This document shows, in pieces, positions 31,825 to 34,882 of a stretch of DNA of 35,018 bases. The notes beneath the pieces are model-generated. The model saw nothing but the letters and a program-made list of their open reading frames with translations. It made no database searches and was not told the DNA's origin. The position numbers were made by a program, and so were the translations under genes. Numbering within the stretch: the stretch's first letter is position 1; every line of letters begins with the position of its first letter. Source of the stretch: an uncultured Bacteroidales bacterium (GTDB lineage Bacteria; Bacteroidota; Bacteroidia; Bacteroidales; Paludibacteraceae); contig CACWZZ010000023.1 of assembly GCA_902765485.1 (NCBI GenBank), positions 1-35,018 of the forward strand, in the 5' to 3' direction.

Positions 31825-32280
31825 TTACTGATTCACTTTCGCTTTGACGATCAACTTGCGGTACTCCTTGCCCGGAGCGATACCCGGTTGGTGGGCATCC
31901 GAAGGGAAGAAGACAGCGAAATGACCCGCCGGCACAGTGAACTTAGCCGTGGCCTTGTCGCCGTAGAACTCTACATCCTTGCCCTCGTCATACTCCTGAG
32001 TCACGTCCTGGCAATCCACTTGGGCTTTCCATCCCATGACCTCGTCATCGCCCAGAGGAATCTGGATATCCAGATAGTCGCGGTGCGCCTCCATACGGCA
32101 TTTGGGCTCCTCTTTGCCCTTGAAATCCACAATGTTGACGTACAGATCCTTGCCGTCCAGATAGATCTTACATGCCGGCAGCTCCTCCAGATCATTGTCG
32201 TTGTAGAACTGCATAAACTCTTTCAAACCCGGTACGCTGTCGAAATACCAATCAGCGTTCTCTAATTTGTCTAGTATCAT
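31825..32280 (-). CDS. YhcH/YjgK/YiaL-family cupin protein
   Basis: The 151-residue protein matches the YhcH / DUF386 family of metal-binding cupins, with MEAHRDYLDIQIPL and FFPSDAHQPGIA carrying conserved His residues. Members are linked to sugar metabolism, including sialic acid and beta-galactosides; the substrate here is unknown. It is the first gene of the minus-strand group that includes glgB and nagB. The promoter is at 32311-32342, divergent from the thiamine-type receptor. Confidence 0.88.
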   Translation of the reverse strand: MILDKLENADWYFDSVPGLKEFMQFYNDNDLEELPACKIYLDGKDLYVNIVDFKGKEEPKCRMEAHRDYLDIQIPLGDDEVMGWKAQVDCQDVTQEYDEGKDVEFYGDKATAKFTVPAGHFAVFFPSDAHQPGIAPGKEYRKLIVKAKVNQ

Positions 32281-32347: not shown

Positions 32348-32379
32348 TTTGCACATTTGCAAAAAAAGCAGTACTTTTG
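32348..32379 (+). promoter_or_regulatory. Promoter of the riboswitch-controlled receptor
   Basis: TTTG (32348-32351) and TACTTTTG (32372-32379) are 20 nt apart, giving a transcript that starts about 15-20 nt before the riboswitch P1 stem. It is back to back with the yhcH promoter. Confidence 0.75.
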
Positions 32380-32402
32380 CACCCGATTTACATTCTGTTA
32401 GA

Positions 32403-32496
32403 TTCATTCGGGGTGCTGGAAGCAGGGACAAACGTCCTATTCGGCTGAGATCATACCCGTAGAACTTGAACAGATAATACTGTTAAAGGAAATGAA
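32403..32496 (+). promoter_or_regulatory. TPP (thiamine) riboswitch
   Basis: The conserved thi-box pieces appear in order: CGGGGTGC (32409-32416), GGCTGAGA-TCATACCC (about 32443-32458), GTAGAACTTGAACAG (about 32459-32473) and GATAATACTGTTAAAGGA (32473-32490). A short variable hairpin (GGGACAAACGTCC) lies between the first two. The P1 stem is TTCATT (32403-32408) with AATGAA (32491-32496), which contains the start codon ATG at 32492-32494. ACTTGA in place of the usual ACCTGA is one deviation. The location upstream of a TonB-dependent receptor fits thiamine uptake control. Confidence 0.9.
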
Positions 32497-34882
32497 AAAA
32501 TCCACATTCTTTATCAACCACGCATGGTTGATGCTTTGGGGCGCATGGACGCTCTTTGCTGCGCAAGTGAGTGCGCAGACCACCGCGCAGGACTCTGCGC
32601 AAGTTCTTCCGTTCGACACGCTGAACGCGAGTGATTTCCGGATTGAGGAGATCGAGGTTACCGCTACGCGGGTACAACAGACCACCCTTTCCCACCAAGT
32701 AACGGACAACAAATCGCTGAACCGTGATAACACGGGTCAGAACCTGCCCTATCTGCTGAGCACCACGCCGGGTCTGCAGGTCACGAGCGACGACGGTCTG
32801 GGTATCGGTTACACCTATTTTCGCGTGCGCGGAACCGACCACACGCGCATCAACATGACCGTGAACGATGTGCCGCTGAACGACGGAGAGAGCCAGACCG
32901 TCTTCTGGGTCAACATGACGGATATGGCATCCAGCATGAGCAGTATTGACGTGCAGCGCGGCGTGGGTACCAGCACCAACGGCTCGGCTTCTTTCGGCGC
33001 GAGTCTGAACATGCAGACGAACGACCCGATGCTCATCAGCCGTCATCTCGCGGAAGACCGGAGTCACGTGACCCTCGCCTTCAACGGAGGTATGTACAAG
33101 ACCTTCAAAGAGATGGTGAATGCCCACATCGTGCTACCCGGCAGATGGGTTGCCAACGCACGGTTCAGTAAGGTCAATTCAGATGGATTCCTCTACCGCA
33201 CCGGCAGCGATCTATATAGCTACTACGGCGATCTTGGTTGGTACGGCAAACAGACCCAGGTGGTAGCCCGTCTCTTCGGAGGAAAAGAAAAAACAGGAAT
33301 GGGTTGGGACGGCGTGGATTATAACACCGCCTACGGTATCAACGGTGCCGACAGACGCTATAACCCTGCGGGTGAATATACCGTCAAAGATAGCCAAGGA
33401 AACGACTCCACCGTCTATTACTCCAACCAGACGGACAACTACGCCCAGCAGCATGCCCAGATAGCCGTCACCCATCGTTTCACCCCTCAATGGAGCCTCA
33501 ACGCCACCCTCCATTATACCCACGGAGGCGGTTACTACGAGCAATACGAGAACAAGGCACTGAAGTATTTCAACCTGCTGCCCTATACCGATGCTGACCA
33601 AGGCAAAGTGGAAAAGAGCGACGGCATCTACCGCAAGAACCTGAATAACCATTTCTACGGAGCTGTCCTCTCCGCCAAATACACCTCCGAAGCAGTGCAG
33701 GCGCAAATCGGAGCCGCAGCCAATGACTATATCGGCGCCCATTGGGGCGAACTGCTTTGGGTCAGCGATCCTCATTACTCCCAAACGATCCCTTACGCCT
33801 ATGAGTTCTACCGCGCTAACAGCCGCAAAGTGGATGCCAATATCTACGCCAAAGCGAATTGGCATATTATCCACCGCGCCCAAGAGCGTCTGTCGCTCTA
33901 CGCCGACCTGCAATACCGGTATGTGCGCTATCGGATGGCAGGCATCAATGCCGATGCGCTGAAAAAGTATGCGGACCAACCGGACCTGACCGAGCTGCCG
34001 CTGCTGGTACAATACCATTTCTTCAACCCCAAAGCCGGACTCACCTACCAAAACCACGGTCATCTGTTAGCAGGTTCGTTCGCCATGGCAAACCGCGATC
34101 CCAGTCGCGACAATTACACGGAGAACATCATTTACGACCGCACGACGAAGACCTACTCCGGCAAGATGCCGCAGGCGGAGACGCTGTACGACTATGAACT
34201 GGGTTACTCCTACGCGCACACGCGGTTTAACATAGGACTCAACCTCTATTTCATGGACTACGACAACCAACTGGTCCTCACCGGCCGCGTCAACGACGTG
34301 GGCAAACAGTCCACCACCAACGTCAAAGACTCCTACCGCATGGGTATGGAGTTGAGCGCCGGAGTGAAAATCACCTCTTGGTTCCGGTGGGAAGGAAACA
34401 TAGTGCTCTCGCGCAATAAGATCCGGAACTATACCGAGACGATCACCCACTATGACGAGAACTGGAATTGGGTGGGCGAAGAAGAAGTGTTCTTCAAAGA
34501 GACGACGATCGCTTTCTCGCCGATGGTGACGGGAATGAGCTTGTTCACTTTCGACATCGCAGGCTTCGTAGGCACCATCCAGACCAACGTCACCGGAAAA
34601 CAGTATCTGGACAACACCCAGAACGAGACAGCGGCGCTCAAAGCCTACACCACGACCAACGTGAACCTGCAATACAGCCTGCCGATGCAGAAATGGGGAG
34701 AGGGAAAGAAAGGTGTTCCGGAGGTGAAACTCCTATGCCGGATCAATAATATCTTCAACGCCAAATATGCGTCCAACGGCGGCAGCGACTGCTCTTATTT
34801 CCAGAATGGCAAAGCCTGCTGGCCCTGGTACTACGCCCAAGCCGGCATCAACGTCCACGCCGGTTTTGTCGTACAATGGTAA
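32492..34882 (+). CDS. TPP-riboswitch-controlled TonB-dependent outer-membrane receptor
   Basis: The 796-residue protein has a signal peptide (about 1-28), a TonB-box-like region (EEIEVTATRVQ, about 52-62) and a plug domain (about 75-190, RVRGTDHTRINMTVNDVPLN). A beta-barrel follows, ending in NVHAGFVVQW with a terminal aromatic residue. It lacks the N-terminal CarboxypepD-like domain of SusC proteins. The TPP riboswitch directly in front makes thiamine, or a thiamine precursor or phosphate, the probable substrate, as for the thiamin-regulated receptors known in Bacteroidetes. The ATG is the one in the riboswitch P1 stem. No other thiamine gene lies in the window, so the cognate inner-membrane transporter is elsewhere. 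Confidence 0.9.
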   Translation: MKKSTFFINHAWLMLWGAWTLFAAQVSAQTTAQDSAQVLPFDTLNASDFRIEEIEVTATRVQQTTLSHQVTDNKSLNRDNTGQNLPYLLSTTPGLQVTSDDGLGIGYTYFRVRGTDHTRINMTVNDVPLNDGESQTVFWVNMTDMASSMSSIDVQRGVGTSTNGSASFGASLNMQTNDPMLISRHLAEDRSHVTLAFNGGMYKTFKEMVNAHIVLPGRWVANARFSKVNSDGFLYRTGSDLYSYYGDLGWYGKQTQVVARLFGGKEKTGMGWDGVDYNTAYGINGADRRYNPAGEYTVKDSQGNDSTVYYSNQTDNYAQQHAQIAVTHRFTPQWSLNATLHYTHGGGYYEQYENKALKYFNLLPYTDADQGKVEKSDGIYRKNLNNHFYGAVLSAKYTSEAVQAQIGAAANDYIGAHWGELLWVSDPHYSQTIPYAYEFYRANSRKVDANIYAKANWHIIHRAQERLSLYADLQYRYVRYRMAGINADALKKYADQPDLTELPLLVQYHFFNPKAGLTYQNHGHLLAGSFAMANRDPSRDNYTENIIYDRTTKTYSGKMPQAETLYDYELGYSYAHTRFNIGLNLYFMDYDNQLVLTGRVNDVGKQSTTNVKDSYRMGMELSAGVKITSWFRWEGNIVLSRNKIRNYTETITHYDENWNWVGEEEVFFKETTIAFSPMVTGMSLFTFDIAGFVGTIQTNVTGKQYLDNTQNETAALKAYTTTNVNLQYSLPMQKWGEGKKGVPEVKLLCRINNIFNAKYASNGGSDCSYFQNGKACWPWYYAQAGINVHAGFVVQW

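Follow-up and report, generated by a model that had tools for sequence, protein, structure and literature searches.

The locus analysed here raises the question of how a TPP riboswitch might control a gene whose start codon lies within the closing helix of the aptamer itself. It is located near the end of a DNA stretch of 35,018 nucleotides (the window), which is contig CACWZZ010000023.1 of assembly GCA_902765485.1 and stems from an uncultured Bacteroidales gut bacterium of the Paludibacteraceae. The original prediction, made from the sequence alone, had placed a TPP riboswitch at 32403-32496 and the ATG of a TonB-dependent receptor gene inside its P1 stem TTCATT/AATGAA. A search with the Rfam covariance model gave a match to RF00059 (TPP) at 32399-32507 on the forward strand, which covers the whole model (1-105) and scores 58.1 bits, compared to a gathering score of 54.3, with an E-value of 4.6e-9. 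The riboswitch was thus confirmed, and both P1 strands proved exact to the base, with the ATG at 32492-32494. Within the window, RF00059 was the sole Rfam family above cut-off, and in the corresponding genome (82.8% complete) this was the only TPP match at E ≤ 0.001. The features of the locus are as follows.

32348..32379, forward strand: predicted promoter, TTTG - 20 nt - TACTTTTG, a pattern match to the Bacteroidota promoter consensus
32399..32507, forward strand: TPP riboswitch aptamer (RF00059); the final 12 model positions lie past P1
32403..32408, forward strand: 5' strand of P1, UUCAUU (DNA TTCATT), from sequence, covariance model and covariation with 32491-32496
32409..32412, forward strand: 5' strand of P2, partner 32456-32459; closing pair C-G, A-U or U-A in relatives
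32425..32438, forward strand: extra hairpin within the P3 arm, an optional P3a-like insertion, from sequence and fold
32445..32450, forward strand: CUGAGA core strand, without variation in 84 aligned leaders
32465..32488, forward strand: P4/P5 arm, with P4 at 32465-32467/32486-32488 and P5 at 32470-32473/32480-32483; 100% of cells paired in 84 leaders
32491..32496, forward strand: 3' strand of P1, AAUGAA (DNA AATGAA), which holds the start codon, from sequence, covariance model and covariation
32492..32494, forward strand: start codon (AUG) of the receptor, the first one available in its frame; position kept in 116 of 135 receptor loci of the genus
32492..34882, forward strand: TonB-dependent receptor of 796 aa, probable thiamine receptor (OMthi-like), from Pfam and TPP-linked homologues elsewhere
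32513..32532, forward strand: perfect hairpin AUCAACCA-CGCA-UGGUUGAU in the signal-peptide codons (CDS +22 to +41)

The covariance model pairs 32404-32408 with 32491-32495, and the pair 32403/32496 extends P1 to six pairs. The stretch AAAGGAA located 5' of the AUG lies inside the aptamer; the phylum is said to do without the use of Shine-Dalgarno (SD) sequences. With the ATG inside P1 there is no space for a separate expression platform, whose absence had been predicted. For the same reason, a terminator or a sequestering hairpin between aptamer and gene was ruled out. Given the promoter-like pattern at 32348-32379, the leader would comprise about 105 nt and thus little beyond the aptamer. TAnnTTTG was found at most 70 nt upstream in 43 of 146 loci of the genus, compared to 3.9% in shuffles, and the full promoter pattern was found in 24 of these 146 loci.

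In the window's own genus, which consists of uncultured Paludibacteraceae, 152 of 178 genomes contain a TPP match at E ≤ 0.001, and 44 of 178 contain one above the family cut-off. The weakest matches were left out, and the resulting set comprised 150 loci from 146 genomes. The genes behind these loci are 135 receptor homologues and 10 thiM-like and 2 tenA-like genes, labelled by visual inspection and from their similarity to two loci; the remaining 3 loci could not be assigned. The ATG starts 6 to 2 nt before the end of P1 in 116 of the 135 receptor loci; in the window it begins 4 nt before this end. The remaining receptor loci have their ATG at -1 or +3 (2 loci) or 15-119 nt downstream (16 loci), and for a single one (L138) the start-finding rule gave none. 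The expectation that P1 of the orthologues always holds the ATG is therefore correct for 116 loci and fails for the 16 with a downstream start. Of the 12 thiM/tenA loci, 4 have the ATG at -3 and 7 have it between 0 and +2, and no ATG was found for the remaining locus. Since 11 of these 12 starts lie at -3 to +2, the compact layout extends beyond the receptor. A compact start was noted for the tenA-like loci L034 and L102, and for the thiM-like loci L035, L036, L042, L059, L079, L097, L112, L126, and L128. In the distal-start loci L037, L038, and L068, the 5' stretch GATGGGG of the aptamer could, as judged by eye, pair with a CCCATC-like stretch preceding the start, which perhaps constitutes a conventional anti-aptamer platform. 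The receptor tree requires 8 changes between proximal and distal starts, and leaders and mature receptors have seemingly recombined. Due to this apparent recombination, the order of gains and losses of the start is not derivable from the tree.

The pairing within P1 was assessed in the commonest register, -4, which comprises 90 loci of the genus. The 5' strand is TCATT in 64 of the 90 loci, and all three bases of the AUG are paired in 76. At least five contiguous pairs were found in 65 of the 90 loci, corresponding to 43 of 62 distinct leaders, compared to a chance level of 1.9% for random strands of similar composition. For the analysis of covariation, 84 distinct leaders were retained from the 116; near-identical sequences, two sequences without a recognisable GGG, and leaders longer than 115 nt were dropped. 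Across these 84 leaders, the core strands of the aptamer are invariant, P2, P3, P4, and P5 covary or hold, and 91.0% of the cells of the whole aptamer are paired, a value as high as in none of 500 shuffles. The closing pair of P2 is C-G in 51, A-U in 16, and U-A in 5 of them. All six P1 pairs change on both sides. The number of doubly changed P1 cells is 40, compared to 14.6 ± 3.1 after shuffling, and the P1 covariation score is 0.261, compared to 0.144. Furthermore, 74.6% of the P1 cells are paired, whereas at most 53.6% are paired if the strands are slid by 1-3 columns. For each of these three measures, none of 500 shuffles, which leave the relatedness among the leaders in place, was as high. 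Two further measures of P1 did not exceed the shuffles, namely the number of pairs in which a double change occurs (226 of 500) and the pair types (63 of 500). In L170, L178, and L187 the ATG is moved by 1-2 nt, and the complementary UCAUU moves too. A control with free register that allowed G-U pairs gave 34 of 58 distinct leaders compared to 31.5%, which is a moderate excess and a weaker contrast; 6 of the 58 distinct P1-start leaders contain no gapless helix that spans the whole AUG. As the relatives retain the P1 pairing over the ATG and show covariation there, this pairing exceeds chance.

Based on the observed aptamer, the AUG in P1, the conservation and covariation of this arrangement in the genus, and its absence from the loci read outside the genus, we consider it probable that the leader is a TPP riboswitch without a separate expression platform, in which closure of P1 by TPP directly hides the AUG. 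At low TPP concentration, the six-pair and mainly A-U helix P1 would be too weak to persist and the AUG would be open; the ribosome would then start the receptor at an open A-rich start region and not by means of SD pairing. If TPP is plentiful, the ligand would lock the aptamer and close P1, the AUG would be held in a helix that blocks initiation, and the synthesis of the receptor, which would carry thiamine, would drop. In PMC6847099, Bacteroidota are described as lacking SD sequences, as favouring adenines before the start, and as having an unstructured start region. It is therefore plausible to assume that masking of the AUG should suffice. According to an energy model, whose values for aptamer and P1 are rough as the extra P3 hairpin was placed out of register, P1 contributes about 1 kcal/mol (0.9 to 1.3) to the folded aptamer, and the helix should consequently depend on the ligand. 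With the same rough model, the ligand-free minimum is more stable than the aptamer fold by 4.4 to 7.0 kcal/mol. The ligand-free probability of an unpaired AUG has a mean of 0.49 for the 116 loci and of 0.38 if 60 nt of coding sequence are included. For the window, the value is 0.73-0.77 for a transcript that ends at 32496; if the transcript extends to 32520, U and G of the AUG pair with downstream codons. Stretches further downstream that can form at least 5 pairs with the AUG region are only mildly enriched (80.6% compared to 61.2% in shuffled sequences). Ligand-free folding exposes the AUG only partly, and this counts against direct masking by TPP.

Alternatively, the AUG might have come to lie beside the aptamer merely through shortening of the leader. 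The pairing in P1 would then be due to chance in an AU-rich sequence, and control would be exerted otherwise, for example by transcription or by pairing of the 5' end with the P4/P5 strand in an alternative, anti-P1 fold. A fold of the latter kind, with CUGUUAGAUUC paired with GAACUUGAACAG and P1 open, is indeed the ligand-free energy minimum of the window leader. Duplexes of this kind below -8 kcal/mol were found in 34% of 95 leaders compared to 10% of shuffled ones, and according to the energy model they may serve some members of the genus as an anti-P1 state. The distal-start loci of the genus are likewise in agreement with chance pairing. However, such an anti-P1 fold would correspond to the ON state of this very riboswitch and would not amount to another mechanism, and a terminator has no space before the gene. 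Moreover, P1 covaries in register over the AUG, and the frequency of at least five pairs in fixed register (43 of 62 distinct leaders) contrasts with the 1.9% expected by chance. We therefore regard chance pairing as an unlikely explanation.

The hairpin in the signal-peptide codons raises the possibility of a more elaborate control. A stem of at least 6 Watson-Crick pairs within CDS +10 to +75 was found in 74 of 108 distinct receptor sequences with a start in or adjacent to P1, compared to 6.5% of shuffles. It was rare in the comparison genes. Within the genus, 5 of 15 receptors with a distal start and 2 of 9 thiM/tenA genes contain such a stem; in other genera, 2 of 6 receptors carry it, as do 26 of 137 genes under TPP control beyond the genus. 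Of 17 further genes in the window, 1 has it. Among 16 additional Plug-domain genes encoded by the genome, a coding hairpin was found in 2, both with doubtful starts. Inside the genus, the link between hairpin and P1 start is modest (Fisher p 0.018, relatedness ignored). In 32 rows the stem occupies 22-29/34-41; of these, 17 have A-T and 15 have G-C as pair 26-37, and more double changes occur at 24-39, 25-38, and 28-35. Compensatory variants are AUCARCCA/UGGYUGAU and AUCGACCA/UGGUCGAU, for example in L083, L174, and L186. An intrinsic terminator was rejected for this hairpin, as the next 8 nt carry 1 to 5 T. It is conceivable, albeit doubtful, that the TPP leader controls translation by means of two elements, the AUG in P1 and the covarying coding hairpin, which act together. 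The hairpin would keep the start region clear of competing pairs, or it would pause RNA polymerase such that the aptamer reads TPP before the AUG is committed. A related palindrome is dispersed in the window's own genome, with 36 sites (at most 2 mismatches) compared to 1 for the reversed pattern. Several of 15 palindrome loci examined are located outside any long frame, and some lie within other genes. Due to this distribution, the coding hairpin may be a repeated palindrome in a tolerant site. The dispersed 20-bp family consists of ATCCGCCA-N4-TGGCGGAT and relatives, for example in L384, L388-L391, and L394-L397.

It is very unlikely that the receptor is translated from a different start codon, either the ATG that many relatives carry in loop L5 or an in-frame ATG further downstream. 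The L5 ATG seen in many leaders of the genus is in frame, 15 nt before the P1 start and inside the aptamer. An in-frame ATG at most 24 nt upstream exists in 81 of the 116 P1-start loci, mostly in loop L5. In the other 35 loci, however, the upstream ATG has the wrong frame or is followed by a stop (18), or there is none at all (17, window included), and the ATG in P1 is consequently the start common to all. The window contains no L5 ATG; 32474-32482 has AATAC instead. The ATG at 32492 is the earliest ATG, GTG, or TTG of the 796-aa frame past the preceding stop and opens a lysine-rich signal peptide, whereas a start at the next in-frame ATG (32531) would drop the positive end of this peptide. 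Least credible of all is a decayed aptamer that has lost TPP binding: the scores are modest, as seen from the 44 of 178 genomes with a match above the family cut-off, but the core is invariant and P2-P5 covary or hold, with 91% of cells paired in 84 leaders.

For comparison with the layout in the genus, 142 TPP loci from outside were used, namely 42 from the other genera of the family, 50 from the order, and 50 from the phylum; 90 were the best-scoring ones and 52 were hand-picked. The first ATG of the longest frame served as the start. An in-frame ATG at -8 to -2 was found in none of the 142 loci. The ATG is located at +1 in 1 locus (the tenA-like L003), at 5 to 30 in 7, and beyond 30 in 134. 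A receptor homologue lies downstream in 72 of the 142 loci; none of these 72 has an in-frame ATG between -8 and +4, and two lack an ATG according to this rule. The TPP link of the receptor is wide and, among the loci read, a start in P1 was seen only in the window's genus. As it occurs in 0 of the 142 outside loci read, this layout is lineage-specific and not a trait of the phylum, and a phylum-wide rule is ruled out.

The window shares all helices and core strands with the RF00059 aptamer and scores above its cut-off. The difference is the location of the start codon, which is in P1 here and more than 30 nt away in 134 of the 142 outside loci. The layout resembles "direct translation attenuation" (Barrick and Breaker 2007, PMC2258182), which is defined by a start at most 15 nt from the aptamer end and by the lack of a separate platform; here, the start lies 4 nt before the end of P1. 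In that class, mainly known from Actinobacteria and Cyanobacteria, the role of the ribosome binding site is taken by the purine-rich 3' portion of the aptamer. In contrast, the AUG itself is part of P1 in the window, and the phylum is one without SD sequences. The leader is best read as a start-codon variant of direct translation attenuation, for which we infer the response to the ligand. According to PMC11487190 and PMC5234074, TPP lowers translation initiation of E. coli tbpA and thiC, with P1 opposed to anti-P1. However, tbpA masks the SD sequence, and thiC has RBS and AUG in a separate stem-loop and a large platform. Among the open PMC papers searched, no published TPP riboswitch with the start codon in P1 as the prevailing layout of a genus was found, and neither was any other published riboswitch with the start codon in P1. 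Riboswitches that act directly on initiation (PMC2258182) and TPP-linked thiamine receptors (PMC5613172) are already known. Riboswitch action on translation without SD pairing has been little studied, and the leader is a very small switch, little more than an aptamer. For one and the same receptor, the starts that lie within P1, next to it, and at a distance from it form a natural series. The question of whether masking of the AUG alone is enough is therefore directly testable.

The receptor contains a Plug domain (PF07715, 2e-9) and a TonB-dependent receptor barrel (PF00593, 5.8e-21). It matched no NCBIfam family, and a comparison with PDB sequences gave nothing at E ≤ 0.001. Of 201 relatives found, the 80 best named ones stem from metagenome-assembled genomes assigned to Paludibacteraceae or Bacteroidales, and the titles of many refer to the rumen or hindgut; the nearest among these 80 (91% identity) is from Bacteroidales bacterium UBA3653. 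A search for ThiC in the window's own genome found none, and the same negative result was obtained for 61 of 61 genomes of the genus that were searched (own genome included; 26 at least 90% complete), whereas 13 of 14 control genomes were positive. Two PnuC-family genes are located elsewhere in the own genome. The genus likely depends on thiamine or a precursor. A resemblance exists to OMthi (BT2390) from Bacteroides thetaiotaomicron, a TonB-dependent receptor linked to a TPP riboswitch upstream, whose mutants implicate it in thiamine uptake according to PMC5613172. This resemblance concerns the domains, Plug and barrel, and the linkage, with 72 of 142 outside TPP loci preceding a receptor homologue. 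In the same study, the mRNA of the TPP-linked receptor of B. thetaiotaomicron shows no significant response to thiamine, which speaks in favour of direct masking of the AUG, and the riboswitch mechanism in Bacteroidetes is termed uncertain. A preprint cited in PMC7366714 states in its title that TPP riboswitches of Bacteroides act on transcription or translation. The role in thiamine uptake that had been assigned to the receptor is supported by the TPP-linked homologues in other families and by the search of the 61 genomes, which found no ThiC; judged from sequence, the receptor probably carries thiamine. A generic receptor is thus tied to vitamin B1 in bacteria in which the search for ThiC found none.

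The contig ends at 35018, and the operon cannot be traced further for this reason. The divergent neighbour at 31825-32280 on the reverse strand encodes a YhcH/YjgK/YiaL-family protein with no evident link to thiamine. The loci L048 and L057 agree fully or almost fully in leader and signal peptide, and their mature receptors are 45.6 and 64.7% identical to that of the window. Similarly, L041 and L050 are alike in leader and signal peptide, and their mature receptors are 92.3 and 46.1% identical to that of the window. In both pairs, the sequences look as if the body of the receptor had been exchanged behind a retained leader.
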